Below are positions 14,795 through 53,776 of a stretch of 58,800 bases of DNA, piece after piece. A program made the position numbers and the translations under genes. The notes below the pieces were generated by a model that had not been told where the DNA came from, did no database searches, and saw only the letters and a program-made list of their open reading frames with translations. Source of the stretch: Terrimicrobiaceae bacterium (GTDB lineage Bacteria; Verrucomicrobiota; Verrucomicrobiia; Chthoniobacterales; JAATET01); contig JAQTOP010000011.1 of the NCBI GenBank assembly GCA_028713285.1, forward strand, positions 1 through 58,800. The letters are read 5' to 3'. Numbering within the stretch: the stretch's first letter is position 1; each line of letters begins with the position of its first letter.

Positions 14795-14875
14795 TCGCTT
14801 CTGCGGGCGGGAAGACCGCCGGACTTTTCGATTCCCGGGAAACAGCCGAAGGCGCGTCGGGAGCGATTTCCTTAT

Positions 14876-15058
14876 ATGCCGGCAAGATCTCAAAAACAGC
14901 GAATGGCGGCGGGCGCTGCACTGGCTGCAAAGCGGGGCGAAACGAAGAAATCCCAGCTCAAGGGCGCCTCGAAGGACATGTATGCCTCGATGAGCGAACG
15001 GGAGCTTCGCGATATGGCGAAGACCAAACGCAGAAAACTTCCGGCCAAAAAGTCATGA
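14876..15058 (+). CDS. DUF3008 small basic protein
   Basis: A 60-residue, strongly basic protein with the conserved DUF3008 layout: MPARSQKQRMAAGAALAAKR at the start, then a KGASKDMYASMSERELRDMA core and a Lys/Arg-rich end. The family is widespread as tiny stress- or stationary-phase-associated proteins with no known activity. Its stop overlaps the start of the next gene by 4 bases, so the two are translated together. Confidence 0.85.
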   Translation: MPARSQKQRMAAGAALAAKRGETKKSQLKGASKDMYASMSERELRDMAKTKRRKLPAKKS

Positions 15059-15207
15059 ATCTCCTTCTGCTCATCATCCTGGCGATCGTTCTCGTCTCGG
15101 TCCTTCCCACATGGCCCTACAGTTCGGGGTGGGGCTATTATCCAAGCGGCGGACTCGGTTTTCTCCTCGTCATTCTGCTGATTCTCCTCCTTCTGGGGGT
15201 GATATGA
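15055..15207 (+). CDS. DUF3309 small membrane protein
   Basis: A 50-residue hydrophobic protein with two membrane segments (residues 2-17 and 33-50) around a Trp/Tyr/Gly-rich linker, LPTWPYSSGWGYYPSGG, the hallmark of DUF3309. Its function is unknown; members are often found among stress genes. It is translationally coupled to the DUF3008 gene by an ATGA overlap. Confidence 0.85.
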   Translation: MNLLLLIILAIVLVSVLPTWPYSSGWGYYPSGGLGFLLVILLILLLLGVI

Positions 15208-15325
15208 CGCTCCGGGCGAAGCCGGGTCAAATCTTGGCCGAGTGGTTTCCTTTTCACGGAAAATCAGGTCGGCATACGGCCATCTCGAATGCCGGTTGCG
15301 ATAATTTTTTGAAACACTTCACGCC

Positions 15326-15505
15326 ATGAGAACCCTTCACCTTGCCTTTTTATTCGCTGCCACTTCCGCCGCCCTCGTTTTCGGCGGATGCGTCAACGTC
15401 AGACACGAGCCCGAGCCGTCCACCACGACGACCACCACCACAAGCACCCTGCGGCCGGCTGTTTCCCCGTCCACCACGACGGTGGAGCGCACGACCACCT
15501 ACTAA
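15326..15505 (+). CDS. Small Thr-rich lipoprotein
   Basis: A 59-residue reading frame with a lipoprotein signal: basic Arg2, a hydrophobic core LAFLFAATSAALVF and a lipobox ending FGGC (Cys22). The mature part is about 37 residues, nearly all Thr, Ser, Pro and charged residues, with a run of seven Thr. It is probably an exported envelope peptide of unknown role. Its TAA stop overlaps the stop of treY on the opposite strand. Confidence 0.6.
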   Translation: MRTLHLAFLFAATSAALVFGGCVNVRHEPEPSTTTTTTTSTLRPAVSPSTTTVERTTTY

Positions 15506-20432: not shown

Positions 20433-20439
20433 GGGGCGA

Positions 20440-23400
20440 TTACGAGGGGTTCGGTTCCCGGGAACCCGGGCCAGGTTCCGGCGCTTCCTCGTCGCCGAGG
20501 AGACGCGCGACCGCGCCGAGGGGGATGGAAAGAAAGGCGGGGCGATAGCTCAATTCGTAGCCGGTTTCGTAAACCGCCTTGTCGAGAAGGAAGAGCTTGA
20601 GCAGCAATTGAAATTCCTCCCCGGCGGGAGGGAGGAACGCCGTTCCCCGGACGGCTTCGCGATACCCGGTGAGGAACTCGCGGCGAATGGCGGACAGCCA
20701 GCGCGCCGCCCAGGGCCGGAGCCGCGTGCGATCGTCCTCCTTTTGCTGGAGCAGGCTGGTTTCCATGGCGTAATCGAACGATCGCAGCATGCCGGCGACA
20801 TCCACGAGCGGGGAACGTTTGAGCAGGCGCTCGCCCAGGCTGCGGCGCGGCTCGCCCTCAAAATCCACAATGACAAAATCGTTGCCGGTATTCAGCACCT
20901 GCCCCAGGTGGTAGTCGCCATGGACACGAATCTTCGCGGCATGGAATCGTCTTTGAAGCAGCACGGCGTAGGTCCCGAGCACGCGCGGGAGGGCGTCGGT
21001 CCAGGCCTTGACCTGCTGGCGGAGGTCCGGATCAAGGGCGGACAGCCGGGCGGTGACCTCGCGTTCTGTCCTGCGGAGCAGGCTGCGCATGCTCTGGTAA
21101 AGCGAGCGCTGGTAAAGCGGCGTAAAGGGCTCAGGCGAAAAATCGGCGCGGGCATCGAAGCCCTCGAGGCAGCGGTGCAGGGCGCCGGTGCGGTCTCCGA
21201 GCTGGCGAGCGCGCCCGGGATAATGCGCTCCCAGCAGCTCCTCGAACGAGACGGACGGTTCCTGCATCTGCGCGGCGATCACGCGCTCGAAAAATCGCGA
21301 AATGGCGTCGAGCGTAAACGTCCAGCCATCGCCGTCGTTTTTGACATATGTCGTGAGCATGGCGAGCAGGCCGTCCTCCTGGCCGCAGCGGCAGCGGATT
21401 TCCGCCGCGAGACGTGGCGCGTGGGGAAACTCCCGCTCGCCGAGAGCCCGCAGGATTTCGGCATCGGGGTGCGGGCCGGGTTCGAACCGGCGCAGGAACT
21501 TGAGCAGAAAGAGTTCGTCATATGCGATCGTGGTGTTCGATTGTTCGCCGCCCAGCAGGTGCGAAGCGGCGGGAGTCGCGGTGGAGGCGGCGGGATCCAT
21601 CCGGCCGCTCAGCGAGGCATTTGGCGATTTCCAGGATTCGCCGCGCAGCATCAGCTTCCACAAGCGCGCGCGGCATGCGGGCACGGACAGGGCGTCCCAA
21701 AGCACGGCGCCATCGCGAAAGCGCGCCACGATGGCCTCGCTGGAGGCGGCATCGCCTTCCTCTTCCCGGCCAAAGGCCAAGGGTAGTACCTGGGTGACCG
21801 TGGTGCCGTCGGTAAACGCGACGTCCAGCAGGAGGACGTGCAGCATGCCGTCGGGATCGCTGAAATTCTGCGCGATGCGGAGAACGCGGACGACGCCCTG
21901 CTTGTGGCCGAACCACCGGCATTGCGCGAGGTAACGCGGAAGCGCGGTGAAGCGGAGCACGGCGAGCAGTTCATCCGACCATTCGGGCTCCAGTTCGAGC
22001 GGGGGGATTTCCGGATCGGGCCCGCTTTCCGAAACCCCGGATGCAGTAAGGGACAGCCAGTAGAATCCGTGCGGTCCGATGGTGAACGCCGTCGGCTGTT
22101 CCGTGATATCCACAAAACGGCTGCCGCCGAACATCTCGATGGCCGAGCAGCCCTTGTAGGCGGGGAGGTCGAGCGCGACGGCCTGGGAAAAGCGGGAGAG
22201 ATTCGCCACGACGAGGATCGTCTCCCCGGCGCCCCCCTTGCGCAGGAAGGCCAGGATCTTGGCATTCGCGGGACGCAGAAACTCGATGGCGCCGCGGGAA
22301 AAGGCCGGGTGGCGTTTGCGGATGTCAACAATGCGGCGCATCCACCAAAAGAGCGAGGAGAGGTTCCTCACCTGCACATCGACGTTCACCGCTTCGTAGT
22401 GGAACTCGGGGTCGATGATGATCGGGAGAAAAAGCTGCTGGGGATTGGCCTGGGAAAAGCCGGCGTTGCGATCCGAACTCCACTGCATCGGGGTCCGCAC
22501 GCCATTACGGTCACCCAGATAGAAGTTGTCGCCCATGCCGATTTCATCGCCGTAATAGAGGATGGGCGTGCCGGGCAGGGAGAGGAGGAGCGAGTTGATG
22601 AGATCGATCTTCCGGCGATTGTTGCCGAGCAACGGGGCCAGGCGGCGGCGGATGCCTAGATTGATCCGGGCGCGCGGCTCCTCGGCATAGAGGCGATACA
22701 TGTAGTCGCGCTCCTCGTCGGTTACCATTTCGAGGGTGAGCTCATCGTGGTTGCGCAGGAAGACAGCCCACTGGCAGGAGACGGGTATTTCCGGCGTCTG
22801 TTCCAGGATGTCGATGATGGGGAACCGGTCCTCCATTTGAAGGCCCATGAACAGGCGTGGCATGAGTGGAAAATGGAAGGCCATGTGGCATTCGTCCCCG
22901 CTGCCAAAATAGCGCGCGGCATCCTCCGGCCACTGGTTGGCTTCGGCAAGGAGCATGCGGCCCGGATGGCGGGCATCGACATGTCGGCGCAATTCCCTGA
23001 GGTAGGCATGCGTTTCGGGAAGATTCTCGCACGAGGTGCCCTCACGTTCGAAAAGGTAGGGCACCGCGTCGAGCCGCAAACCGTCCACGCCCATCTCGAG
23101 CCAGAAATCCACGACCTGAAAAACGGCCTCCCGCACGCGAGGGTTGTCGAAATTCAGGTCAGGCTGGTGGGAGTAGAAGCGGTGCCAGAAATAGGCATGG
23201 GCGAGGGGATCCCACGACCAGTTTGAACTCTCGAAATCCTGGAAGATGATGCGCGCTTCCTCGAAGCGGCGCGGCGTGTCGCTCCAGACATAGAAATCTC
23301 TTTCGGGCGAACCCGGTGCCGCCCGGCGTGCGCGCTGGAACCACTGGTGCTGGTCGGAGGTGTGGTTGATGACGAGTTCGGTAATGACGCGAAGGCGCCG

Positions 23401-23673
23401 CCGGTGGGCCTCGTCGAGGAATTCCCGGAAATCCTCGACGGTGCCGTAGGCGGAATGGACCGAGAAGTAATCCGCAATGTCATAGCCGTCGTCGCGCAGC
23501 GGCGAGGGATAAAATGGCAGCACCCAGAGGGCGTTGACGCCGAGGTTTTCAAGATAGTCCAGCTTGCCCGTCAACCCGTGGAAATCGCCCACGCCGTCGC
23601 CGGTGCTGTCGCAGAAGGACCGGACATGGAGTTCATAAATGATGGCGTCCTTAAACCAGAGGGTGTCCTGCAT
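20440..23673 (-). CDS. treS: Trehalose synthase - maltokinase fusion (TreS-Mak)
   Basis: A 1077-residue two-domain protein. Residues 1-560 are a GH13 trehalose synthase interconverting maltose and trehalose: region [10 protein letters not shown], nucleophile Asp202 in [11 protein letters not shown], Glu244 in [11 protein letters not shown] and Asp310 in [11 protein letters not shown]. Residues about 630-1060 are a maltokinase of the aminoglycoside-phosphotransferase fold, with catalytic VHGDYHLGQ (917-925) and metal-binding IVDFEGEP (935-942); it phosphorylates maltose to maltose-1-phosphate, normally used by GlgE. The start [11 protein letters not shown] was chosen from the family; the frame is open 49 codons further but without homology. 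No glgE or glgB is visible nearby. Confidence 0.93.
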
Positions 23674-23834
23674 CGGCGCGAGATGTCGCTTCACCGAGAG
23701 TTTCGCATCCCGACGGGCTTTCGCGTGTCCTTTGCCGGACTCATCGCGGATCCGGGGAGACCCGATGGTGGCGGTTTTGACTTCGCCGATTGCAAGGGAC
23801 ATCCCGTGATGCGAGAACATCCCGACATATCGTG
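23674..23834. promoter_or_regulatory. Divergent region between treS and the hybrid kinase
   Basis: This roughly 160-base gap lies between the starts of the treS-glgX-treY operon (minus) and the hybrid sensor kinase (plus) and should carry both promoters. No clear promoter or operator was identified. The divergent layout suggests the kinase may regulate, or be co-regulated with, the trehalose operon. Confidence 0.35.
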
Positions 23835-30028: not shown

Positions 30029-31528
30029 ATGATTTCTTTCTCCCACTTTGAAAGTGACCCGGCGCAATTGTTGAGCCAGCGTCTGGGACCGCTTTTCAAG
30101 CAGGGGTTTTTTCGCCCACTGGCGCGTCCTTCCGCGCCGGTTTATGTGGATTTTATTGACCGTTTTGACGCACGGAGCAACGAAGATGGACAGCTTTCTC
30201 ATGAGGAGACGCTCGCGCTGATTCGCGACACATTGATGCTGAATCCCTCCGCGGAACTCGATCTTGACGAAGGGGGAGACACTCAGGATCTGCGCCTGAA
30301 GGCAGGCAAGCTTTTCAACAACTTGCTTCAGGCGCAGTGGATTCAACAGCGGCGCGTGAGCATTGATGAGCGTTGGGTTACTCTTTCTCCTCAAGTGCGA
30401 CCGTTGATCCGCAGTCTGCGCGAGATTGCCCAAGATGACGTCGCGGAGCTCAAGGATTTTGCGGCAACGATTCGCTCAATCTGTGAAACCCTGCTCGCCG
30501 AGGGGACTCTTGATCCTCACCGACGAACCCCCGAAGAATTGCGGCAGGTCATCAAGGAAATCACGGATCGCGTCCTACACGCTGGCGATCAAATGCTTGC
30601 CTTGGAGAGTCTCGTGCTCAAATACGAGCGCCAGCAGCGTGAGAGCAAAAGCGCCGGCGAAACCCTGGATCGGCTCCTCGTGGAATTCCATGAAGGCGAT
30701 CATATGATCTGCTATGACACACTCCAAAAAGGCGGACTTCTGCCGAAGCTGAAGCAGGCCCGCTTGGTGGTCCAGGATGCGATCTCCAATCCCTTTCTAA
30801 AAGAGCACCTAGCCAAAGCCATCGCGACGCACAAAGGGTTGACGGAGATGGATGCCTATGGAAAGGCGGAACAAAGCCTGTCGCGGCTGGACCGGGAGCT
30901 GGGGGGGCTTCCTTCCAAACAGCGAATCGTGGATGGACGCGTGGCCGACTTCAGCCGACTCTCCGCGCAACGCTACCGTTACCAAACCGAAGTCCGCGGT
31001 CGGCGACCGGAGCAGGTTAAGGAATATCTCCAGGCTGCGGCAGAAAAGTATGCCGGATCTTCATTCGCCGATTTAGCCAGAGAGACGGGGATGCAACTGC
31101 TCAGCCCCGAAGTGGAGATTTATTTTGGACGCGATGCTTTGTCGCGACCGCGAAAGGCCAAACTGCCGGTGGATCTGACGATGGCCAGCACCCCGCGCCT
31201 TGGGGATCCTTTCGATGTGCAGGAAATGATTCGCAGCCGGAACCGCACGAGCATCACGCCCCAGCGCGCAGCGCGGTTGATCGAGGAGAGGCTGCCCAAC
31301 GTTGGCGACAAGATCACAACCGCCGATTTTCATCTGGTCTCGGAGGACGACGATCTCCTCGATCTGCTCGCTGTCCTTTCCTTCCATCGCGCCAACACCA
31401 AGGGACACAAACTGCGTTGGCGCATTCACAGCAGTCGTAAAGAGCACGGCTTGCACCCGGAAAACATCCCTTTGGATAGGCAGGCGGGCCATCTCATCGA
31501 GCGAATTACTATCGAACGCCTCGCATGA
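30029..31528 (+). CDS. jetA: Wadjet anti-plasmid system protein JetA (DUF3375)
   Basis: A 499-residue protein of the DUF3375 family, the MukF/kleisin-like subunit of type I Wadjet systems. Visible features: an N-terminal winged-helix-like region (FESDPAQLLSQRLGPLFKQG and YVDFIDRF), a helical middle with LFNNLLQAQWIQQRRV, and a C-terminal part with DPFDVQEMIRSRN. In the known complex JetA links the two JetC ATPase heads and recruits JetB, and the machine extrudes DNA loops to recognise small circular DNA. It is the first gene of four, all joined by 4-base ATGA overlaps. Base composition is less GC-rich than the flanking chromosome. Confidence 0.9.
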   Translation: MISFSHFESDPAQLLSQRLGPLFKQGFFRPLARPSAPVYVDFIDRFDARSNEDGQLSHEETLALIRDTLMLNPSAELDLDEGGDTQDLRLKAGKLFNNLLQAQWIQQRRVSIDERWVTLSPQVRPLIRSLREIAQDDVAELKDFAATIRSICETLLAEGTLDPHRRTPEELRQVIKEITDRVLHAGDQMLALESLVLKYERQQRESKSAGETLDRLLVEFHEGDHMICYDTLQKGGLLPKLKQARLVVQDAISNPFLKEHLAKAIATHKGLTEMDAYGKAEQSLSRLDRELGGLPSKQRIVDGRVADFSRLSAQRYRYQTEVRGRRPEQVKEYLQAAAEKYAGSSFADLARETGMQLLSPEVEIYFGRDALSRPRKAKLPVDLTMASTPRLGDPFDVQEMIRSRNRTSITPQRAARLIEERLPNVGDKITTADFHLVSEDDDLLDLLAVLSFHRANTKGHKLRWRIHSSRKEHGLHPENIPLDRQAGHLIERITIERLA

Positions 31529-32145
31529 ATATCTGGCCCACATTTTGGGAACACATCCCGGAAACGGACCGTCCGTCGATCCGCTCCATCATTGCCGAAC
31601 TCCTCAGCACGGGTGTTCTTTTTGGTGATATGGGACGGGAACGCGAGCTGTTCCTCGTTACGCGGGAATATCAGACCGAACTTTCCGATTACCTTGCGGT
31701 CGCTGGGTTGGAACTATTCGTTGATCCGGACCGCCCGATCTTCCAAGCCCGCCCCATCCCGAGCGAGTGCGGCCTTATGGCGAAGTTCGGCAAGGACGAA
31801 ACACTCGTCGTGCTGACGCTCTGGCGGATTTATGACGAGATGAGGATGGAGCAGACCAGCGAAGCGATCGTCATCACCGCAAACGACCTTGATGCTCGCC
31901 TGAAGCTATATTTCGAAAGCGTCGTTCCACCAACGGACGGACATCTTGAGCGCATGCTGACAAAGTTTCGGCAACGGCGATTTATCAGGTTTCAAAAAGA
32001 CGAGGTGAAACTTGGTGAGTCGCGAATTGAGATTCTGCCGACTCTGGCGCGGGCTATCCCTTTCGACAGTCCGGATGATTGGGCCAGTCATGCCAACCTT
32101 TTCCAGAAAAGCGACACTGCCCCAGCGCAAACTTCCGAGGAATGA
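31525..32145 (+). CDS. jetB: Wadjet protein JetB (DUF4194)
   Basis: A 206-residue protein matching the MukE-like DUF4194 subunit. It consists of two winged-helix-like units: an N-terminal one (TDRPSIRSIIAELLSTGVLF, then LFLVTREYQTELSDYLAVAG) and a second containing FGKDETLVVLTLWRIYDEM and a long helix HLERMLTKFRQRRFIRF. In the Wadjet complex it binds JetA and stabilises the DNA-loading state. The acidic C-terminal tail overlaps the jetC start by 4 bases. The family assignment also rests on its position between jetA and jetC. Confidence 0.88.
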   Translation: MNIWPTFWEHIPETDRPSIRSIIAELLSTGVLFGDMGRERELFLVTREYQTELSDYLAVAGLELFVDPDRPIFQARPIPSECGLMAKFGKDETLVVLTLWRIYDEMRMEQTSEAIVITANDLDARLKLYFESVVPPTDGHLERMLTKFRQRRFIRFQKDEVKLGESRIEILPTLARAIPFDSPDDWASHANLFQKSDTAPAQTSEE

Positions 32146-35100
32146 ACCCACGCATTTCGCTCAGTCGCATCATCGCGATCAATTGGTATGGATTTCGGCA
32201 GATCATTGACGTTGAGGAGACGATCCTCATGTCCGGCGTGTCAGGCACTGGGAAGTCGGCTCTGCTCGATTTGGTTCAACGTGTTATGCTCGGCGAAAAC
32301 TGGCGCCCGAACCGGGCGGCAGCCGGTGCGGCCCGGGGTCGCACCGAGGTCAGCTATGTCCTTTGCGATACCAATACCACCCGCGATGGTGAGCCTCACT
32401 ACACTCGTCGCAGTGGCGCTTCCTATATTGCTTTAGAATTCACCTGGCCGGTGGAAAAAGGTGAGCCACGCAAGGAAACCTGGGGTTGGCGCATTCAGTA
32501 TGACAGCCCGACCTCGGATGCGAGCCGAGTTTATTTCAGCATGCCGGAACGGGCTGATTGGACGACCTTCACCAAGGGCAACGAATTGCTCGGTGAAGAC
32601 GAGTTTAAAACATTCATCCGCCGGGAATACGGGAACGATCACCTCTATTCTCAACGGGAATATTTGGCGGAAATGGCAACGCCCCACCATCTCTGGTTCA
32701 ACGAGGATCGGCTCCACAAGACCATGCCCAAGGCGATCGCTTTTGAGCCCGAGGCCAATATGGAAACGTTCATCCGGGAGTTCATTCTCGAAGAAGCGCC
32801 CATTGATGTAAAAGACGTCCGGAAATCCGTGATCGCCTACCGCGAAACGCAGGAACGACTTTTGAAGCAGGAGGATGAAGCCGCGTTCTTGCGCCGAATA
32901 CGTGAATTTCACTCGGTTTTTGAAATCGAAAATCGGGCTGCAGCACTCTTCTCCCATCTCCGTATCGTTCTGGAATGCACACGCCTGAAGGAGGTGCTCA
33001 CCGGCCACGAGGCCAAACTGGTGTCCCTCGACGCAAGGCATGCGGAAGATAACCTGGCCTACGAGGCGAAAACGACGGAAGTGGCCCGACTGCAGACAGC
33101 CATCAAAGAGTTCAATCTGGATGCGGATGAGTCCGAGTTGGTGGCCAAACGGAGCGAGCAGCACCGCAAACTTCTGGAGCGAAATAAACTTGTCGAGGCA
33201 CAGCAGTCGATCCGGCAGCGGCTCCGCACTTTGGCTCAACGGTGGCGGGAGTGGCTCGAGCGTGGGCGTCAGCAGAAACTCGATGGTCTCCGCGAGGCGT
33301 TGACCGTAGATGTGAATCTGCTCGATGCGCTCAGTGCCACTGATGAAGCAGTGGGTCTCGACGCACTGCCCAAGGTGGCTGCGCGCTTCGAGGAACTCTT
33401 TACGGCCGTCAGAGGGCTGCTCGAACCCATCGACACTGAAATCAAAACGGTGGATGCAACTTTGCGGAGCATCGCTGCCTCGCTGGAAAGATTGGATGCC
33501 GGCCAAACGCCCGGTGAGTTTCCGCTTTTCCAAGCCGTCAAACAGGCGCTCGCCAGATCGCCCACACCACCGGAACAGCTTTGCCGAATGATCGAAGTCA
33601 AACCGGAGGCGGAAACGGACGGATGGCGAAGGGCATTGGAACTAGTTCTTGGCCGCAATCGATTTTCGATCGTGGTTGGATCGATGGATGATTATCGCAT
33701 CGCGATGGATCAACTGCGCCGGCAGCCGCGTGGTGACGAATCGATCGTCCACCCCCGCGAAGCCCTGGACCTGGGGTCAAAGGCGATGCCGGGATCACTC
33801 GCCGAAAAAGTCGAGATCGGTGCCGCAGGCAGCGAACAGAGAACCATCGCCGCATTATTTGTTTTTCATCTGATCGGCCGGATCACTGCAGCAGAAAACA
33901 TCGATGAGTTAGACAATGCTCCGGATCGTGCGGTCACTCGGGATGGAATTTTTAAACAAAAGCCCATCCGGCGGAAGTTGACTCAGCCTGAACGGCTCGA
34001 TTTTACCTTGGGCAAAGAAGGTCTCAAAAGGCTCCGTGAGACATTGCTTCGCGAGCAGCAGGAACTTATGGCGCTGCGCTCCGCCAGATTTGCGCTCCGC
34101 AGTGAAATTCACACGTGGATTGATCTCGGGAAGAGTTGGGAGCTTGGCAACGCCAGGCTGCCAGACCGGAGTAGTGAACTCCATCGTTTGCCGGAGTTGC
34201 AAAGCGAACTCGCTGACCTGTCCTCGCGCCTTGAATTTCTGGAGACTCCAGAGCGTGCCGAGCGGATTGAGAAACGCGAGGAATTGCGCCGACAAGAAAC
34301 AGCCGCCAATATCGCAATCGGCCAACTCACAACTTCCCGGCAGGGTTACAGCCAGCAGCGCCTAGGGATCGAAGAAGCCATCGCCTCGGCTTCGACGCGT
34401 TTAAAAAACCAGGAACTTGAGGCTGGCATCAGTCGCGGTAAGCTGCCGGCGGACGTGGGAGACACCGAGGTTCTCGCTCAAGTGGAGGCTTTTCAGTCCG
34501 AGTGGAAGTCATGGGATGAGAGAAAAGATGCCGCTGAGAAGCATGAAGGTGCCGCCATCAAAAAATCCGCTGACGCCCGCCGCGCTCGCGACAACGAACG
34601 CCGTGCCTTGATTGCCGCTGTGAACAAGGACGGGCGACTCCGGCACCCGGAGTATCGCCATGACTATAATCCCGACGACGAAGACAACAACCAATGGACG
34701 GCGCGCCTCCGAACGCTCGAGGAATTTGAATTGGATAAATTCCGCGGTCTCGCCGCAGATCGCCGCCGCGATTGGGAGCGGAGGTTGAAGGAGCACGTTT
34801 TGAATCGTCTCAATGACAATATTCAAGCGGCGGAGCGGACGGTGAAGGATTTGCGCAAATACCTGGATCGCCAGGTTCGCGGTCACCGTTACGAAATAAG
34901 CCAAAAACGTGACCCCGCGTTTAGCACGCTTTTTAGCCTCCTCGATACTGGATTTGAGCTTTCGGATGACCTTGCGGCCGTTGGACGGGCTAACGAGGTG
35001 CAACAGGCGATGGACGAACTCATGGCCGCCGTCGAAGCCACCGCCGACAAAACTGACGACCGCGCCAAGCGGCTATTGGATTATCGATACTACCACCGCT

Positions 35101-35534
35101 ACGACCTTGAGATGATCAATGTTGGCGGTAGCCATGGAGTTAAAGCACAGCCGATCTCGCTCGGGCGAAGTGGCGTAAATCTTTCGGGCGGCGAGAACCA
35201 AGCACCTTTCTTTATTTCGATGCTCGCGGCCTTCCGTCGGGTGTATGACCTCGGCAGCGGTCGTTCGAATCACCTCGGCCTCGTGGTCATGGACGAAGCG
35301 TTCGCCAAGCTCTCTGGCGATGGCGTCGAAGACTGTCTGGAACTTGCCAAGGAATTTGATCTTCAACTCCTCATGGCTTTCCCGGTGGATCGACTTGGAG
35401 TCATGGCCCCCTTCGCGCAAACAATCATCCTTTGCGAAAAAGAGGAAGAGCGCGACGCGGCGGGATATGTAACCCGCGTCGATAACATCCCGACTCGACT
35501 CACCTCCGAACAGACTCTCGAATCCCTTGCATGA
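32142..35534 (+). CDS. jetC: Wadjet SMC-like ATPase JetC
   Basis: A 1130-residue SMC/MukB-type ATPase that drives loop extrusion in the Wadjet complex. The Walker A motif GVSGTGKS is at 32-39, the ABC signature LSGGENQ at about 1014-1020 and Walker B LGLVVMDEA at 1045-1053 with Asp1051-Glu1052. Between them lie long charged coiled-coil arms (about 250-420 and 620-960) and a central hinge-like region around residues 480-600. The ATG at 32142 was chosen because it overlaps the jetB stop and gives the family N-terminus ISLSRIIAINWYGF; an upstream in-frame ATG lies within jetB. Confidence 0.93.
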   Translation: MNPRISLSRIIAINWYGFRQIIDVEETILMSGVSGTGKSALLDLVQRVMLGENWRPNRAAAGAARGRTEVSYVLCDTNTTRDGEPHYTRRSGASYIALEFTWPVEKGEPRKETWGWRIQYDSPTSDASRVYFSMPERADWTTFTKGNELLGEDEFKTFIRREYGNDHLYSQREYLAEMATPHHLWFNEDRLHKTMPKAIAFEPEANMETFIREFILEEAPIDVKDVRKSVIAYRETQERLLKQEDEAAFLRRIREFHSVFEIENRAAALFSHLRIVLECTRLKEVLTGHEAKLVSLDARHAEDNLAYEAKTTEVARLQTAIKEFNLDADESELVAKRSEQHRKLLERNKLVEAQQSIRQRLRTLAQRWREWLERGRQQKLDGLREALTVDVNLLDALSATDEAVGLDALPKVAARFEELFTAVRGLLEPIDTEIKTVDATLRSIAASLERLDAGQTPGEFPLFQAVKQALARSPTPPEQLCRMIEVKPEAETDGWRRALELVLGRNRFSIVVGSMDDYRIAMDQLRRQPRGDESIVHPREALDLGSKAMPGSLAEKVEIGAAGSEQRTIAALFVFHLIGRITAAENIDELDNAPDRAVTRDGIFKQKPIRRKLTQPERLDFTLGKEGLKRLRETLLREQQELMALRSARFALRSEIHTWIDLGKSWELGNARLPDRSSELHRLPELQSELADLSSRLEFLETPERAERIEKREELRRQETAANIAIGQLTTSRQGYSQQRLGIEEAIASASTRLKNQELEAGISRGKLPADVGDTEVLAQVEAFQSEWKSWDERKDAAEKHEGAAIKKSADARRARDNERRALIAAVNKDGRLRHPEYRHDYNPDDEDNNQWTARLRTLEEFELDKFRGLAADRRRDWERRLKEHVLNRLNDNIQAAERTVKDLRKYLDRQVRGHRYEISQKRDPAFSTLFSLLDTGFELSDDLAAVGRANEVQQAMDELMAAVEATADKTDDRAKRLLDYRYYHRYDLEMINVGGSHGVKAQPISLGRSGVNLSGGENQAPFFISMLAAFRRVYDLGSGRSNHLGLVVMDEAFAKLSGDGVEDCLELAKEFDLQLLMAFPVDRLGVMAPFAQTIILCEKEEERDAAGYVTRVDNIPTRLTSEQTLESLA

Positions 35535-36604
35535 CGCCGGACGATTCATGCTGGCGAAAGTTTCCAGTCTTCCGTGAATTCTTTGTCCAGTGGCGGGCGG
35601 CACGGGGAACGGCCGAGCAGGGAACCCACAAGAAAGTATTCTCTCGCGACTGGGAGGAGTTGCTCCGTGACGCCGGCCTGCTGTCGGCGGTAGATCGGCG
35701 CGAGGCGATTCGTGACGTTCGTTTGCTGGAGAGCGTCCGCTTGCTCAGGCTGAAGACACCCGCCCAAAGACCGGAGGAGATTCTACGTGTCCTGCTTCCG
35801 CTTGATGCTGAGCCCCGGTTACGTCAGCTTTTTGCCGATGAACTGCCGCAGAAAGTGCCGGCATTCGATTTTGGCTCCGTCGAATGGGTGCCAGAACTCG
35901 CCTTCCTCAAAGCGGGTGGCGTCAACGTAGCGGTCGAAGACTTGATCAAGTTAAACGAATTTTTCCGCAACGGCCGCAGTGAAATCGAGATCAACATTAA
36001 AGAACGGTCTCTCCAGATTTTTGGCGATGAGAAACGCCTCGATTCACTCCGAGCCACGACCCTTCTTCGCGATGATCGCCTAACCCTGCGCGCATTGCGC
36101 TGCTACACAGTCGCCGAGCCACTCGGCTGGAAACGCGGCCCAAATACTGCGGGGCCAGTGCTCGTAATCGAAAACGCCTGCACCTGGGACACCTATTGTC
36201 GTTGGAACTGCGAGGTGGCTGAGTTTGCCGGGATCGTGTATGGCGGAGGGAATCGCTTCATGGACAGCGTGAGTCGTTTGAGCGACGTGTTTTCCGAGAT
36301 CGGCGGTATCCGGCGCGTTCTCTACTTTGGAGACCTCGATCCGCAGGGCCTGCACATTCCCAAGGCCGCATCCAAGGTTGCCACACGATGCGGCCTTCCT
36401 CCCGTCGAGCCGGACCTGTGGAGTTACGCCCACCTTTTAACGGTAGGTCAACAGAGCCCGTTGGGGGACGTGAATGATGCGACTAAAATCGAGATGGAAT
36501 GGATCGGGAGCCTCACTCAAAGCGTCCGAGAGGTGTTCAGTCGCGGACTTCGGATCGCTCAAGAAGGCATCAATTGGGAATGGCTCAGCCACCAAAAAAG
36601 GTAA
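35531..36604 (+). CDS. jetD: Wadjet nuclease JetD (DUF3322/DUF2220, TOPRIM)
   Basis: A 357-residue protein with an N-terminal DUF3322-type region (1-190; FPVFREFFVQWRAARG and a VEWVPELAFLKAGG segment) and a C-terminal TOPRIM-like DUF2220 domain. The metal-binding residues are visible: Glu214 in VLVIENACTWD and Asp268/Asp270 in YFGDLDPQGLHIP. JetD cleaves the circular DNA once the loop-extruding JetABC complex has stalled on it. All catalytic residues appear intact, so the system is likely functional. Its start overlaps jetC by 4 bases. Only about 170 bases remain before the right-end repeat. Confidence 0.9.
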   Translation: MTPDDSCWRKFPVFREFFVQWRAARGTAEQGTHKKVFSRDWEELLRDAGLLSAVDRREAIRDVRLLESVRLLRLKTPAQRPEEILRVLLPLDAEPRLRQLFADELPQKVPAFDFGSVEWVPELAFLKAGGVNVAVEDLIKLNEFFRNGRSEIEINIKERSLQIFGDEKRLDSLRATTLLRDDRLTLRALRCYTVAEPLGWKRGPNTAGPVLVIENACTWDTYCRWNCEVAEFAGIVYGGGNRFMDSVSRLSDVFSEIGGIRRVLYFGDLDPQGLHIPKAASKVATRCGLPPVEPDLWSYAHLLTVGQQSPLGDVNDATKIEMEWIGSLTQSVREVFSRGLRIAQEGINWEWLSHQKR

Positions 36605-36774: not shown

Positions 36775-36820
36775 AAGTCGTTGAAAATAAGGAGAGCGGG
36801 TGAAGGGAATCGAACCCTCG
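36775..36820 (-). repeat. tRNA-Gly 3' end with flank, copy 3 (putative attR)
   Basis: These 46 bases match 28451-28496 at 39 positions; the uninterrupted identical core is GGGAATCGAACCC, the T-arm of the tRNA. It marks the boundary between the island and the chromosome. Confidence 0.7.
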
Positions 36821-36865
36821 TATGCAGCTTGGGAAGCTGCCGTTCTACCATTGAACTACACCCGC
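36795..36865 (-). tRNA. tRNA-Gly (anticodon CCC)
   Basis: The minus strand folds as a cloverleaf: acceptor GCGGGTG / CACCCGC, D-arm with AGTTCAATGGTAGA, anticodon stem GCAGC / GCTGC with loop TTCCCAA giving anticodon CCC, and T-arm GAGGG-TTCGATT-CCCTT. The discriminator base is T and CCA is not encoded. The 3' end faces the Wadjet island, which fits integration at this site. Confidence 0.95.
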
Positions 36866-48387: not shown

Positions 48388-48939
48388 ATGATCAAAAACA
48401 TCAAATCCATTGCAATCGTCCTCGCGTTGAGTTCGTCCTCGATCTTCGCGGCAAACACGGTCGTCGTCGGCGGCCAGAATATGTTCCCGGCACGGGACAT
48501 CATCGACAACGCCGTGAATTCGGCGGACCACACCACGCTCGTCGCAGCCGTCAAGGCCGCCGGCCTCGTGGAAACCTTGAAGGGCCCCGGCCCGTTCACC
48601 GTCCTTGCGCCGACGAACGCCGCGTTCAACAAACTGCCCGCGGGCACCGTCGAGACGCTCGTGAAGCCGGAAAACAAGGCGACGCTCACCAAAATCCTCA
48701 CCTACCACGTCATTCCCGGCAGGCTGGATTTTGCCGCGCTCTCCGAGCAGATCAAGAAGAGCCACGGCTCGGCGAAACTCAAGACGGCGGCCGGTGAAAC
48801 GCTTAAGTTCACGATGAATGGCCCGCACAACATCCAGATCAAGGATGAAAAAGGCGACACGGCCAACATCTCGACCTACGACGTCTATCAATCCAACGGC
48901 GTGATCCAGGTCATCGACTCGGTTCTCCTGCCCAAGTAA
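48388..48939 (+). CDS. Secreted fasciclin-domain protein
   Basis: A 183-residue protein with a signal peptide (basic MIKNIKS, hydrophobic IAIVLALSSSSIFA, cleavage after Ala near residue 21) and a single fasciclin (FAS1) domain. Conserved boxes are visible: FTVLAPTNAAFNKLPAG (H1-like), LTKILTYHVIPG and the closing NGVIQVIDSVLLP. FAS1 domains mediate adhesion or act as small exported proteins of the matrix; in bacteria single-domain versions are common and poorly understood. A strong hairpin 27 bases after the stop probably ends the transcript. Confidence 0.9.
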   Translation: MIKNIKSIAIVLALSSSSIFAANTVVVGGQNMFPARDIIDNAVNSADHTTLVAAVKAAGLVETLKGPGPFTVLAPTNAAFNKLPAGTVETLVKPENKATLTKILTYHVIPGRLDFAALSEQIKKSHGSAKLKTAAGETLKFTMNGPHNIQIKDEKGDTANISTYDVYQSNGVIQVIDSVLLPK

Positions 48940-48965
48940 TCAACACCAGGGAACTCCATGCGAGC

Positions 48966-48993
48966 GCGGGCGATTCGGAAACGGATCGCCCGC
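48966..48993 (+). terminator. 12-bp hairpin with GAAA tetraloop after the fasciclin gene
   Basis: A perfect 12-bp stem (GCGGGCGATTCG against CGGATCGCCCGC with one G-U pair) closes a GAAA tetraloop and is followed by TTCGTC. The stem is very stable but the U tract is weak, so it may act as a terminator or as an mRNA 3'-end stabiliser. Confidence 0.6.
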
Positions 48994-49031
48994 TTCGTCA
49001 TGCTAATACCCGGAAGAGCACTGCCCTCGCC

Positions 49032-49994
49032 ATGCATATCGTCGTCCCTCCGACCTGGTCGCTTCCCGATTCCTCCGTCGCGCCGGAGGCGATTTATCGC
49101 GGCAGGCGCGACTTTCTCAAGCTATTAGGCTTCGGGGTCGCGGCTGCCGCCATCGCGCCTGAGGATTTGCTCGCCAGCGCGGCGGAAATTCCCGCGCGAC
49201 TCAATCCTGCTCATCGCCTCGACGGGCTGAGACTAACGAAGGAAAACGCGATTCTCGGCTACAACAATTATATTGAATTCTCGCTGGTCAAGGAGGGTCC
49301 GCGCATCGAGGCGAACAAGGGATTCCGGGCTCGTCCCTGGTCGGTGGACATTACCGGGCTCGTCGAAAAGCCGCTTAGCCTGGATGTGGACGAGCTGGTC
49401 CGGACAATGGGTGGCATCGAGCAGCGCAACTACCGGCACCGCTGCGTCGAAACCTGGTCGATGGTCATTCCATGGGACGGCTTTCCACTCAGCCGGCTCA
49501 TTCAGCTCGTCCAGCCAAAGCCGGAAGCCAGATTCGTCAAATTTACCTCGTTTCTGGATACGGATGCGGCGCCGAACCAGAACAATCCGCTGATCCCCTG
49601 GCCCTACACCGAGGGCCTGACGATCGCGGAGGCGGCGAACGAGCTGACCTTTCTGGCGACCGGCATTTACGGCAAGCCGCTGGCCAATCAAAATGGCGCG
49701 CCTCTGCGGCTTGTAGTGCCGTGGAAATATGGCTTCAAGGGCATCAAGGCGATCACCGAGATCGCGTTCACCGACGGGCAGCCGGCGACGCTTTGGAACC
49801 AGGTCGCTCCGGCGGAATATGGCTTCTACGCCAATGTGAATCCGACAGTGGATCATCCGCGCTGGTCGCAGGCGCGCGAATTCGTGCTGGGCGGAGGGAT
49901 ATTCGACGGCAAGAAGCCGACGCTCATGTTTAACGGCTACGCCAGCGAAGTCGCCGGGCTGTATCGGGGTCTCGACCTTCGGAAAAACTATTGA
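49032..49994 (+). CDS. msrP: Periplasmic methionine sulfoxide reductase catalytic subunit MsrP
   Basis: A 320-residue molybdenum enzyme that repairs oxidised methionine in envelope proteins. The N-terminus has a twin-arginine signal (RRDFLKLLGFGVAAAA, 25-40), as required for export of the folded molybdopterin protein. The molybdenum-binding Cys138 sits in YRHRCVETWSMVIPWDGFPL. Other family segments are IEFSLVKEGPRIE, WSVDITGLVEKPL, PYTEGLTIAEAANELTFLA and the C-terminal MFNGYASEVAGLY. It is directly coupled to the fused electron-supply gene that follows. Confidence 0.95.
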   Translation: MHIVVPPTWSLPDSSVAPEAIYRGRRDFLKLLGFGVAAAAIAPEDLLASAAEIPARLNPAHRLDGLRLTKENAILGYNNYIEFSLVKEGPRIEANKGFRARPWSVDITGLVEKPLSLDVDELVRTMGGIEQRNYRHRCVETWSMVIPWDGFPLSRLIQLVQPKPEARFVKFTSFLDTDAAPNQNNPLIPWPYTEGLTIAEAANELTFLATGIYGKPLANQNGAPLRLVVPWKYGFKGIKAITEIAFTDGQPATLWNQVAPAEYGFYANVNPTVDHPRWSQAREFVLGGGIFDGKKPTLMFNGYASEVAGLYRGLDLRKNY

Positions 49995-50005
49995 GGGCCG
50001 GCGGC

Positions 50006-51682
50006 ATGGAGAAGGCCTCGAAAATCATTGGCTCGCGCTGGTTTGCGTGGCCGCTTCTCACCCTGCCTGCGCTCTTGCGGCTGGTCATCCCCGCCCTCAC
50101 CGACGGGCTTGGATTCAACCCGTTGCAGGAACTGCTGCACCGCACCGGGCAAATCGCCGTCTGGACCCTGGCAGCGGTGCTCTGCCTCACGCCGCTCAAG
50201 ACCCTCTTTCCGAAGAGCCGGCTCGCCGGCGCGCTGAACCGTCACCGTCGCACCGTGGGAGTGGCCGCGTGCGTCTATGCCGCGCTCCACGTCACCGCGA
50301 ACTTTCTCTACGAGGGCCAGTTCCAGAGCTACCTGGACGGCGTTTGGAAGCCGTTTCTTCTCTCGGGAACCACCGGCTTCCTGATCCTGCTCGCGCTCGC
50401 CGTGACGAGCAATGCCTGGTCCGTGCGGCACCTTGGCTATCGCCTGTGGAAATGGATTCACCGTCTCGCCTACGTCGCGGCGGTTGTGTTGTTCTATCAC
50501 CAGGGCACCTCCGGCAAGGGCAACTGGCCGGCGGCGCAATGGATTTTCTTCCCGCTGGCCGGCTTTGAAATCCTGCGCCTGGGCAAATCGCTCGCGGACC
50601 TCTGCTGGCGGGGGATTCGGCGCCGGCGGGGCGCGTGGAGCGGCTGGCGGGATTTCGAAGTCCTGCACCGCGAGGAGGAGAGCGCGACAATTACGTCGTT
50701 TCACCTGCGACCGGTGGATGGACGACGTCTGCCGCCGCACCAGCCCGGCCAGTTCCTCACGGTCGAGGTGACCATTCCGAATGAACCGCGTCCCTTGGTG
50801 CGCACCTACACGATTTCCGACTCGCCGAACGGACGGACTTATCGGCTGAGCATCAAGCGCGAGCCGCGCGGCGTGGTTTCCAATTATTTTCACGATTCGC
50901 TGGCCGAGGGGGCGCGCCTCCGGGCGAGGCCGCCGGCCGGCGGATTCTGCCTCGACCCATCCGCCCCAGGCCCGATCATTCTCCTCAGCGCGGGCGTCGG
51001 CATCACGCCGATGATCGCGATGCTCGATGCGCTCGTCGCGAGCGGACGGAGCCGGCCCGTGTGGTTCCTTCACGGCGCGCGCAACCGCCGCGAACACGCC
51101 TTTGCATCGCACGTTCGCTCACTCGCCGCGCGCCATGCGCATGTGCGCGCGCACATTGCCTACAGCCAGCCCGAGCCCGGCGACGAAGGATCGTCCGCTC
51201 CGGCCAGCACGGGCCGCGTGGACATGGAACTGGTCAAAAAGTTGCTGCCATCCAGCGAGGGAGAATTCTACCTTTGCGGGCCCGGGGCGTTCATGCAATC
51301 CCTCCACTCCGGCCTGATCGAGTGGGGAGTGACGCCAGCGCGGATCCATTACGAATCCTTCGGCCCGGCGACGGTGATGGCCAATGGGGCGGCCAGTCCA
51401 TCCGGACCGCGCGCCAGCAGGCAGGTGAGCGTCGAGTTTTTGCCGTCTGGCGTCCAGGCCGCCTGGGATGGAGGCCCCGCGAACCTGCTCGAACTCGCGC
51501 TCACACGCGGGTTGAAGCCGGCCTACGGCTGCCGGGCGGGCGTCTGCGGCGCCTGCTCCCACCGGCTCATCCAGGGCTCCGTGGCCTGCGTGCAGGAACC
51601 TGCGTGGCCCGCTGAACCCGGTCGCGTCCTGCTGTGCAGCGCCTTCCCGGTTACGGACGTGCAAATCGACATCGCCGGCTAA
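50006..51682 (+). CDS. msrQ: MsrQ - ferredoxin reductase - 2Fe-2S ferredoxin fusion
   Basis: A 558-residue protein from the ATG at 50006 (gaggg upstream); a TTG at 49991 overlapping the msrP stop is an alternative. Residues 1-200 are the MsrQ/ferric-reductase haem membrane domain with about six helices and the conserved His in LNRHRRTVG, YAALHVTANFLYEG and YRLWKWIHRLAYVAAV. Residues about 215-455 are a ferredoxin-NAD(P) reductase: FAD motif RTYTISDSP, VSNYF, NAD motif SAGVGITPMIAML and FYLCGPGAFM. Residues 470-558 are a 2Fe-2S ferredoxin with YGCRAGVCGACSHRL and a final Cys near LLCSAFP. It can thus pass electrons from NAD(P)H to MsrP in one chain. Confidence 0.9.
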   Translation: MEKASKIIGSRWFAWPLLTLPALLRLVIPALTDGLGFNPLQELLHRTGQIAVWTLAAVLCLTPLKTLFPKSRLAGALNRHRRTVGVAACVYAALHVTANFLYEGQFQSYLDGVWKPFLLSGTTGFLILLALAVTSNAWSVRHLGYRLWKWIHRLAYVAAVVLFYHQGTSGKGNWPAAQWIFFPLAGFEILRLGKSLADLCWRGIRRRRGAWSGWRDFEVLHREEESATITSFHLRPVDGRRLPPHQPGQFLTVEVTIPNEPRPLVRTYTISDSPNGRTYRLSIKREPRGVVSNYFHDSLAEGARLRARPPAGGFCLDPSAPGPIILLSAGVGITPMIAMLDALVASGRSRPVWFLHGARNRREHAFASHVRSLAARHAHVRAHIAYSQPEPGDEGSSAPASTGRVDMELVKKLLPSSEGEFYLCGPGAFMQSLHSGLIEWGVTPARIHYESFGPATVMANGAASPSGPRASRQVSVEFLPSGVQAAWDGGPANLLELALTRGLKPAYGCRAGVCGACSHRLIQGSVACVQEPAWPAEPGRVLLCSAFPVTDVQIDIAG

Positions 51683-52269
51683 GCGGCCAGCGCGGGGCAA
51701 AGAATCAACAGGGCCACGCAGCCATCGGGCGAACTCGCCTCGTAGTGGTGGCTGCCCGCATCGGCCTTGAGGTAATCACCCGGTCCCAACAGACGGCCTT
51801 CGGTCTGCAAATGACCCGAGAGCATATAGATCTCCTCGGTCCCTTCGTGATCGTGATCCGGCACGCTCGCGCCCCGGTCCAGCGCAATCAACATCACCTG
51901 GTAACCCGGCTGCGGGCCGCTCGACAGCGGCTTCGTTCGAAATCCCGGGATGTCCGTGCCGGTCCATCCCTCGTCACTGCGCGAGACGATGCGATAGGCT
52001 GCGGGCAACTCCGGTGGCGCTGCGGCCTCGCTGGCTGCCTGCGGCGTCGCGACAATATCGGTAAGAATCTGCGCGCGCAGCCGCGGGGACGGCGGGACGC
52101 CAGGACTCGCGGCGGCGGCGATCGCCGCCGCAGTGTCGATGAAGGCTCCAACTTCCTCCCGCGCTTCGGCATCATGGATCAGCAGGGCCTCGAGTTGAGC
52201 GGCTTCGTCCGGCTCCAAGGTCCCGATTGCGTGTCCCAGCGCGAGTTGTTCGAGTGTCTTGCGAGTCAT
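51679..52269 (-). CDS. ChrR-like anti-sigma factor with cupin sensor domain
   Basis: A 196-residue protein. Residues 1-70 form the sigma-binding helical domain (LALGHAIGTLEPDEAAQLEALL), without an obvious zinc His-x3-Cys cluster. Residues about 90-190 are a ChrR-type cupin: GYQVMLIALDRGASVPDHDHEGTEE (quoted in part; metal ligands His-x-His and Glu) and GPGDYLKADAGSHHYEAS. In ChrR the cupin releases the sigma factor on oxidative or singlet-oxygen stress. Its start overlaps the sigma gene stop by 4 bases; its stop overlaps the msrQ stop on the other strand. Confidence 0.85.
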   Translation of the reverse strand: MTRKTLEQLALGHAIGTLEPDEAAQLEALLIHDAEAREEVGAFIDTAAAIAAAASPGVPPSPRLRAQILTDIVATPQAASEAAAPPELPAAYRIVSRSDEGWTGTDIPGFRTKPLSSGPQPGYQVMLIALDRGASVPDHDHEGTEEIYMLSGHLQTEGRLLGPGDYLKADAGSHHYEASSPDGCVALLILCPALAA

Positions 52270-52853
52270 AATTGCTCCTCGAGCACGTCGCGCATCGCAA
52301 GCATGCCCCTGCGAATGCGAGCTTTGATCGTGCCCAGCGGTTCACCGAGCTGGGTTGCGACTTCCGTTTGAGAGAGTCCCGTGAAAAAGGCGAGTTCGAT
52401 GGCCAGCCTCTGCTCGCCGGGCAGGCGGGCCAGCGCTCCGCGAAGCAGGTCGGCAGTCTCGTTTGCAAACGCCTCGACCGGCGTCTGATGCGTCGCGGCC
52501 GAAAAGTCCGCCGCCGCTTCCTGTGTCAGCCTGGCAATGGTTTCGTTCTTTCGCTTCAGCACGCGCAGACGGTCGATGGCCTTGTTCCGCGTGATCACCA
52601 CGGCCCAAGACGCCGGCTTGCCCAGCGACGGATTGTAAAGTGGTGCGCGTTCCCAGACGAGGCGCACCGCGTCCTGCAGGACCTCCTCCGCCTCGTGCAA
52701 ATCTCCCAGCACCTTGACTGCGATGGAAAACAGCAGCGTGGAATGCCGGTCGTAAAATTCGCCGAATGCCGCCGTGTCTCCGGTTCCGATGCGACGCAGC
52801 AATTCCCCATCCGTCTCCGAAGGTTGCGCGAAGGTCTCGTTGTCCGCGATCAT
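52266..52853 (-). CDS. ECF sigma factor, partner of the ChrR-like anti-sigma
   Basis: A 195-residue ECF sigma from the ATG at 52853. Region 2: FGEFYDRHSTLLFSIAVKVL, HEAEEVLQDAVRLVWERA and WAVVITRNKAIDRLR. Region 4: LPGEQRLAIELAFFTGLSQTEVA and LGTIKARIRRGMLAMRD. The frame is open to a possible start at 53045 that overlaps the stop of the upstream sigma gene, but that added 64-residue head is Arg/Ser/Pro-rich and unlike sigma factors, so it is not preferred. It is coupled to the cupin anti-sigma gene and is its likely target. Confidence 0.9.
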   Translation of the reverse strand: MIADNETFAQPSETDGELLRRIGTGDTAAFGEFYDRHSTLLFSIAVKVLGDLHEAEEVLQDAVRLVWERAPLYNPSLGKPASWAVVITRNKAIDRLRVLKRKNETIARLTQEAAADFSAATHQTPVEAFANETADLLRGALARLPGEQRLAIELAFFTGLSQTEVATQLGEPLGTIKARIRRGMLAMRDVLEEQL

Positions 52854-53041
52854 CGCCTGCAAACACCACGGCACCAGCAGCCGGGCATCCGCGGTCCGCG
52901 ACGGAAATCGGGAAGCGTATCGGAGGCACGAGTGCGCACGAAAACAGTCGGTAACGAAATTACCGGCGGAGGGCAAACTCCTTCTCCCTGCGCGCCGCGG
53001 GCTGGTGCGGAAAGGAACAGAGCGGTCTCGTGCAAGGGTGA

Positions 53042-53626
53042 TCATCGAGCCTCCATGACGAGGTCGCGCAAGCGGACCAGGCCCCGCCGAATGCGTGCCT
53101 TGATCGTGCCGAGCGGAGCGCCGAGGCGTTCTGCAATTTCCTCGTGGGTGAACCCGCCGAAAAACGCGAGTTCCAGCGCCTGGCGTTGTTCCCCGGGCAG
53201 CCGCGCGAGCGCGGAGCGCACCATCGCCCGCTCTTCGCGCAGGACCGGCTCCCTGGCGGACAGCTCGTCGGTATCCGCCACATGGGAGGACTCCGCGGTC
53301 GCGCTCTCGACGATCCTGTCGATCCGCTGCCGCGACCGAATGCGATCGATGGCCTTGTGCCGCACGATCATCACGGCCCAGGAAAACGGGCTGCTGAGCT
53401 GCGCGTTGTAAGCCGCGGCCTTGCGCCAGATGTAGAGGAAGGCGTCCTGCAGGACATCTTCGGCCTCCTTCTCATTCTTGAGCATTTTCACGGCAAGGCC
53501 AAACAGCGGGGGCGAAAAGCGGTCGTAAAACAGGGCCAGCGCCGCCTCCTCACCGGCGCCCATTCTCCCGAGCCATCCTTCGGCCTCCTGCCTGGCGGAG
53601 TCCTCGTCGGGAGCAATCTTCGACAC
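53042..53626 (-). CDS. Second ECF sigma factor, paralogue of the neighbour
   Basis: About 194 residues from a GTG at 53626; longer starts (GTG 53776, ATG 53767) add a 50-residue head without sigma homology. Region 2 reads ALFYDRFSPPLFGLAVKML, KEAEDVLQDAFLYIWRKA and WAVMIVRHKAIDRIR; region 4 reads LPGEQRQALELAFFGGFTHEEIA and LGTIKARIRRGLVRLRD. Region 4 is very close to that of the next gene, so the pair arose by tandem duplication. With only one anti-sigma gene in the operon, either both share it or this copy is controlled otherwise. Confidence 0.88.
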   Translation of the reverse strand: MSKIAPDEDSARQEAEGWLGRMGAGEEAALALFYDRFSPPLFGLAVKMLKNEKEAEDVLQDAFLYIWRKAAAYNAQLSSPFSWAVMIVRHKAIDRIRSRQRIDRIVESATAESSHVADTDELSAREPVLREERAMVRSALARLPGEQRQALELAFFGGFTHEEIAERLGAPLGTIKARIRRGLVRLRDLVMEAR

Positions 53627-53776
53627 ACTCCGCAGCCTGGCCGGCGCGACAGCGGCGCATCCTTCCGACGTTTGCCCGAACTCTCCGGCAACCCTGGCGT
53701 CACCGCACTCGGCAACGACGTCCCCGAGGGCGATTGTTTGCAGGGCGAGCGTGATGGCCACTTTCATGGCCTGCAC

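Follow-up and report, generated by a model that had tools for sequence, protein, structure and literature searches.

An MsrQ-type membrane domain fused to an Hmp-type reductase and a ferredoxin adjoins msrP in a Terrimicrobiaceae bacterium

We analysed a 58,800-nt stretch of DNA (hereafter the window; contig JAQTOP010000011.1 of assembly GCA_028713285.1, forward-strand positions 1 to 58,800) from a Terrimicrobiaceae bacterium of the Verrucomicrobiota. In it, msrP, which encodes a periplasmic molybdenum methionine sulfoxide reductase, is followed by a gene that joins an MsrQ-type membrane domain, a flavin adenine dinucleotide (FAD)/NAD(P)H reductase (NAD(P)H being reduced nicotinamide adenine dinucleotide or its phosphate) and a plant-type [2Fe-2S] ferredoxin domain in one polypeptide. 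For positions 49,032 to 51,682, which hold these two genes, a first-pass annotation made from the sequence alone had proposed an MsrQ with its own reductase and ferredoxin, giving a complete electron path from NAD(P)H to the periplasm. The layout, the MsrQ type and the msrP neighbour were borne out, and that interpretation as a whole is partly supported. Judged from domain content and gene neighbourhood, the fusion is probably a self-sufficient MsrQ that powers MsrP from NAD(P)H.

The product of the fusion gene matched four Pfam domains within one frame, in the order Ferric_reduct (residues 46 to 161), FAD_binding_6 (217 to 313), NAD_binding_1 (325 to 432) and Fer2 (491 to 547); these Pfam numbers run from position 50,009 and are therefore one residue behind the other residue numbers given here. 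The gene begins 11 bp after the msrP stop codon, with a TTG at 49,991 as a possible alternative start. When the fusion protein was searched against the whole genome, it matched one place at E ≤ 0.001, without an internal stop, and the G+C content at third codon positions (GC3) was alike along the gene (0.83, 0.79 and 0.84). The full layout was also present in one frame in two relatives, G076 and G223, at 49% and 40% identity. Because relatives carry this layout in single frames and GC3 is even, a missed frameshift, which would make the reductase a separate gene, is very unlikely, and we rejected both frameshift and mis-assembly.

The membrane domain carries Arg81, His95, His152 and His165, and these four ligand columns were invariant across 10 aligned sequences. 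In YedZ and STEAP proteins the first haem His is replaced by Arg, whereas bacterial long forms, in which a membrane domain is joined to a reductase, are described as having all four His (PMC3591440). With Arg at the first haem site and a reductase in the chain, the fusion thus combines the architecture of a long form and a haem domain of YedZ type. His80 stands just before Arg81, and the G076 fusion has Phe at that position. Like the NOX/FRE long forms, the chain holds a ferric reductase domain (FRD), an FAD domain and an NAD(P)H domain, but it lacks the set of four haem His; like MsrQ it adjoins msrP, but it is not a membrane domain alone. The membrane domain grouped with the msrP-linked MsrQs of the phylum and not with the four-His ferric reductases, and its closest sequence by identity (52% over 190 columns) was L126 from G075, which is of MsrQ type, adjoins msrP and is cut by a contig end. 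The grouping and the MsrQ/YedZ ligands both contradict the possibility, raised with the original proposal, that this domain is some other ferric reductase.

The neighbouring msrP is genuine. Its product scored 406.6 bits on the MsrP equivalog model NF003767 (cut-off 207), has a twin-arginine signal and is 50% identical to Escherichia coli MsrP, with Cys138, which we take to be the molybdenum ligand, inside an invariant block of the alignment. This is the single msrP match in the genome, and the fusion is the only MsrQ-type profile match there. Unfused MsrQ-type domains stood beside msrP in 21 of 21 Verrucomicrobiota loci read (15 of 15 in a sample of the order and six of six in a sample of the phylum); a stop was visible in 20 of them, and L157, the same gene as L126, is cut by a contig end. 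Therefore, the MsrQ-type membrane domain goes with MsrP. Excluded from these 21 and from the three fusions counted below were the weak FRD matches L119, L155 and L156, as well as L158, L159 and L160 from other phyla, of which L158 adjoins an MsrP-like frame and the other two do not. Three genomes of the same genus (one only 84% complete) gave no msrP match and no strong MsrQ-type match, so msrP and the MsrQ-type domain are jointly present or absent in four genomes. The sole, weak MsrQ-type match in the three lies in G001 (L155:1363-3165), in a protein that joins a ferric reductase domain to a Rieske domain.

The top model for the reductase was the nitric oxide-inducible flavohaemoprotein NF009805 (292.8 bits, cut-off 432), and its nearest solved structures by sequence were the Hmp proteins 1cqx, 3ozu and 1gvh. 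A fold search with the predicted model placed Hmp 1gvh best and E. coli Fre (1qfj) at rank 45. As judged from sequence and predicted fold, the fused reductase is nearest the Hmp reductase rather than Fre; the first-pass label of an FNR-type reductase needs amending to an Hmp-like one. It contains RTYT (residues 266 to 269), presumably the FAD motif, GVGITP (330 to 335), presumably the nucleotide motif, and CGP (424 to 426). The [2Fe-2S] motif reads Cys509-x4-Cys514-x2-Cys517-x26-Cys544, and all four cysteines were invariant in a 32-row alignment. The chain thus has everything by which we recognized an Hmp-type reductase-ferredoxin cassette, namely, an FAD motif, a nucleotide motif and C-x4-C-x2-C-x(n)-C. 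In the AlphaFold model, the reductase blocks scored mostly >90 and Fer2 77 to 90, and the structural matches were Hmp and reductase-ferredoxin structures.

The same kind of cassette is joined to other partners: a MOSC domain in L003, a pyridoxamine-phosphate-oxidase (PNPOx) domain in L031 and, in L070 and L057, a short N-terminal stretch that looks anchor-like by eye. L012 is Hmp proper, a globin and a reductase without Fer2. The L003 protein (L003:1498-3321, G023), with MOSC and reductase-ferredoxin in one frame, may be a self-sufficient molybdenum reductase. The short-form cassette of L095 is next to a divergently oriented gene for a c554-like cytochrome, and the G223 fusion has a neighbour of this kind too.

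We propose that cytosolic NAD(P)H would reduce the FAD of the Hmp-type reductase and that the tethered [2Fe-2S] domain would then pass single electrons to the MsrQ domain on its cytoplasmic side. From there, one or more haems would carry the electrons across the membrane, and MsrP would use them on the outer side to convert methionine sulfoxide to methionine. The fused reductase would in this way take the place of the separate donor, Fre/flavin or quinol, on which the two-gene system draws. From the sequence we infer that electrons run from FAD through [2Fe-2S] to haem, that MsrP receives them and that the pair has a role under oxidative stress. That MsrP is the acceptor seems most likely because one msrP and one MsrQ-type domain, that of the fusion, were found in the genome.

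Several observations weigh against this assignment. The membrane domain scored 89.9 bits on the MsrQ equivalog model NF003831, under the cut-off of 130 (E. coli MsrQ scored 240.8 bits); AlphaFold modelled the MsrQ part poorly (blocks of 34 to 76, with no alignment depth there); and two of the three fusions, those of G076 and G223, are in genomes without an msrP match. The score we dropped as a ground against MsrQ, since all five short msrP-linked MsrQs of the phylum that were tested also fell under 130 (75, 78.5, 78.8, 83.1 and 92.8 bits), and the score of the fusion is inside their range. The membrane part being so poor, we rejected the AlphaFold model as a guide to contact between the ferredoxin and membrane domains. 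The third observation limits the claim: fused MsrQ-type domains adjoin msrP in one of three cases, and because no msrP was matched in G076 or G223, a three-part fusion need not imply an MsrP partner. Completeness is 95% for G076 (contamination 9%) and 99% for G223; in G076, only 235 bp of contig precede the fusion gene. At the G223 locus (L121:6558-11925), the fusion gene comes after two others on its strand, one for a 680-aa multihaem cytochrome that has a c554-like domain and one for a 531-aa protein that matched nothing in Pfam; together they may form a path by which NAD(P)H drives electrons outward.

The three-part fusion was rare in the genomes searched, in samples that overlap. A whole-protein search of 97 relatives gave one other full-length match, that of G076. 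Profile matches were found in 18 of 213 genomes of the order, two of them fusions (G076 and G000, the genome of the window), and in nine of 288 genomes of the phylum, again with two fusions (G000 and G223). In searches with a full-length profile, at most three candidates per genome were scored, and misses are possible; among the matches listed for 387 genomes of the phylum, all three parts occurred only in G000 (1014 bits) and G223 (987 bits), and the next match, at 405 bits, covered the reductase and Fer2 only. In the phylum of the alphaproteobacterium G493 (398 genomes), no listed match spanned the membrane part and the reductase, the best (389 bits) starting at profile position 195. Across 244 genomes in the phylum of the cyanobacterium G494, the best membrane-domain match was a 195-aa frame at 81 bits; five of the weaker matches, longer frames of ~370 to 480 aa, were read and rejected, because their membrane domain sits close to the C terminus, nothing beyond it matches a reductase and an MsrP-like frame is absent. 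A contig scan found no match to the window membrane domain at E 1e-4 in the best 80 of 532 relatives, among which L075 has a weak MsrP-like frame. G106 was rejected as a further fusion; its 614-aa frame runs through upstream sequence and has no reductase. Also rejected were ten frames of 444 to 477 aa in the phylum whose match spans the membrane part and the reductase up to its end. Each has a His pair at either haem site and lacks a Fer2 motif, and the stretches read around them contain no MsrP-like frame. All ten were read, with Pfam confirmation for three, and by their sequence features they are taken as ordinary NOX/FRE-type long forms.

We built a cassette tree from 72 of 99 rows after removing the long-branched L192 and L071. 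The window and G076 fusions paired in it (Shimodaira-Hasegawa-like approximate likelihood ratio test [SH-aLRT] 90, on a branch that is not starred), and at least two changes are required by the starred branches. When the three fusions were constrained to one clade, a test made after an earlier tree had been seen, the fit fell by 25 log-likelihood units, with a borderline approximately unbiased (AU) p of 0.0497. The membrane-domain tree, in which long branches are present, again paired the window with G076 (support 96/94) and placed G223 elsewhere, and it did not reject one clade of fusions (p 0.505). In the earlier cassette tree, the cassette L172 (from G232, of the same class) adjoins that of the Opitutaceae record L090, from which we infer a verrucomicrobial host. 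The cassette and membrane-domain trees give moderate support to two separate captures of the cassette by MsrQ-type domains. A broader and more tentative scenario, which we rate as possible and somewhat less than even, is that a few Verrucomicrobiota wired MsrQ-type domains to NAD(P)H at least twice through a roaming Hmp-type reductase-ferredoxin cassette, with one line freeing periplasmic methionine repair from dependence on the quinone pool and on a soluble flavin reductase and the other feeding multihaem c cytochromes. If so, MsrQ would be a general outlet that can be replugged to new donors and acceptors, and the tethered ferredoxin would act as a one-electron gate. To our knowledge, NOX enzymes have no tethered ferredoxin gate.

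The fusion could instead serve generally to export electrons from NAD(P)H across the membrane, as a ferric reductase, a cytochrome reductase or a NOX-like oxidase, and adjoin msrP incidentally. Such a role would suit the G223 fusion, whose genome gave no msrP match and which stands in a same-strand row with a c554-like multihaem cytochrome gene; the cassette next to a c554-like gene in L095 and the reported ability of SpNOX to reduce cytochrome c (PMC5676040) point the same way. For the window we consider it unlikely: its fusion lies 11 bp from the only msrP match of its genome and has the only MsrQ-type domain found there, its haem ligands are of MsrQ/YedZ type while the ten FRD-reductase proteins of the phylum are four-His, and the cassette tree sets the G223 copy apart. 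We see a still smaller chance that the membrane domain is fed by the quinone pool or a separate flavin reductase, while the fused reductase serves, for example, cytosolic flavin or ferric reduction. Four intact redox domains in one chain, kept in that layout at 49% and 40% identity in two genomes, argue against separate feeding, and domains that work apart would seldom be fused; on the other hand, the MsrQ donor has been described as the quinone pool (PMC11564096) or Fre (PMC11031084), and such cassettes occur with varied partner domains. That separate genes were joined by an assembly error or a frameshift is scarcely credible, even in a draft of 157 contigs, given the absence of an internal stop, the two relatives with the same layout and the GC3 alike across domains.

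Table 1. Positions of msrP, the fusion gene with its parts, and the adjoining genes in the window
Feature	Positions	Strand	Evidence and remarks
Fasciclin-domain protein	48388..48939	+	PF02469; separate gene upstream of msrP
msrP, periplasmic molybdenum methionine sulfoxide reductase, 320 aa	49032..49994	+	NF003767, TAT_signal_seq, PF00174
MsrQ-reductase-ferredoxin fusion, 558 aa, ATG start	50006..51682	+	Single open frame; four Pfam domains in order
MsrQ-type ferric-reductase-like membrane domain, residues 1-205	50006..50620	+	PF01794; NF003831, 89.9 bits
Hmp-type FAD/NAD(P)H reductase, ~residues 211-458	50636..51379	+	PF00970, PF00175, NF009805
Plant-type [2Fe-2S] domain, ~residues 479-558	51440..51682	+	PF00111; cysteine motif
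ChrR-like cupin anti-sigma factor	51679..52269	-	PF12973; NF051881, 48 bits (cut-off of 300 not reached)
Extracytoplasmic function (ECF) sigma factor	52266..53045	-	PF04542, PF04545
Second ECF sigma factor	53042..53776	-	PF04542, PF08281

The anti-sigma gene is convergent with the fusion gene and overlaps it by 4 bases (Table 1). In Brucella, an ECF sigma/anti-sigma pair is reported to regulate msrPQ homologues (PMC8315932), and a paper on singlet oxygen in Rhodobacter (PMC7074977) lists the fasciclin gene RSP_1409 near rpoHII with values of 2.8 and 4.5, in the part of its table without the column heads. Because of these precedents, an oxidative-stress setting for the window locus is plausible by analogy. 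A candidate ECF-type promoter shared by the fasciclin gene, msrP, the sigma genes and a small upstream open reading frame was rejected, as nothing scored above shuffles; the 76-aa translation of that small frame had no Pfam match. The fasciclin, ChrR-like and sigma genes of the window had no match at E 1e-3 in 12 stretches (eight of them msrP loci of relatives, one from E. coli), several of which are short or cut by contig ends. Two consecutive ECF sigma genes accompany a single ChrR-like anti-sigma gene, each overlapping the next by 4 bases (51679-53776, minus strand), and may reflect a duplication. Between the fasciclin gene and msrP, we noted by eye a hairpin-forming inverted repeat (48965-48995) that may end the fasciclin transcript. 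Farther away, PADLOC identified a Wadjet jetABCD defence operon (30029-36604, plus strand; JetA weak, JetB, JetC and JetD clear), which ends before a tRNA-Gly gene (36794-36865, minus strand). An alpha-amylase-family gene cluster occupies 12962-23820, and one of its genes has maltogenic-amylase and maltokinase-cap domains.

The locus resembles E. coli MsrPQ (YedYZ) in setting an MsrP beside an MsrQ-type membrane domain; it differs in that the 211-aa E. coli MsrQ has no reductase or ferredoxin and takes Fre as a separate donor, whereas here an Hmp-type reductase is fused. Hmp and the PNPOx- and MOSC-linked reductase-ferredoxin proteins share the same kind of C-terminal cassette but join it to a globin (L012, without Fer2), PNPOx (L031), MOSC (L003) or a short stretch (L070 and L057), not to MsrQ. 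A 2004 paper by von Rozycki reportedly announces, in its title, YedZ fusions to electron carriers; compared by title alone, its overlap with the window fusion is possible. Bacterial NOX/FRE long forms such as SpNOX likewise place a haem membrane domain before an FAD/NAD(P)H reductase in one chain, but they have four His (PMC3591440; also 10 of 10 read in this phylum), whereas the fusion has Arg at the first site and a C-terminal Fer2. Ferredoxin is among the domains described as joined to bacterial FRD proteins (PMC3591440), and model M8 of Zhang 2013 joins a bacterial ferric reductase domain to a ferredoxin domain; the available part of that source mentions no msrP neighbour and does not state whether the membrane domain is of MsrQ type. 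MsrQ-like proteins in flavinylation clusters (PMC8238504) combine PF01794 with a C-terminal PF00175 in 1437 clusters, but these contain ApbE and FMN-binding (flavin mononucleotide-binding) genes and are mainly actinobacterial, with no msrP neighbour mentioned in the text available. In Acidocella, nSor (PMC10715153) is an MsrP-like enzyme beside a membrane cytochrome b, an arrangement resembling MsrPQ, but it is a proposed quinone reductase, and the accessible text mentions no fused NAD(P)H reductase.

MsrQ and Fre have been described as two components that together resemble NOX, and numerous FRD-FNR fusions are known in prokaryotes (PMC5676040, PMC11031084). In the open-access literature, searched by titles and abstract openings and with subscription papers mostly outside it, no description of an msrP-adjacent MsrQ-reductase-ferredoxin fusion turned up. 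Fusions of an FRD to a reductase or to Fer2 are known already, and what appears to be new is such a fusion with an MsrQ-type domain beside msrP. A fusion with its own NAD(P)H reductase permits a direct test of the MsrQ donor, since one polypeptide together with MsrP should run on NAD(P)H alone. The fusion would represent a one-chain MsrQ-type form that stands between the two-component MsrQ/Fre system and the NOX enzymes.

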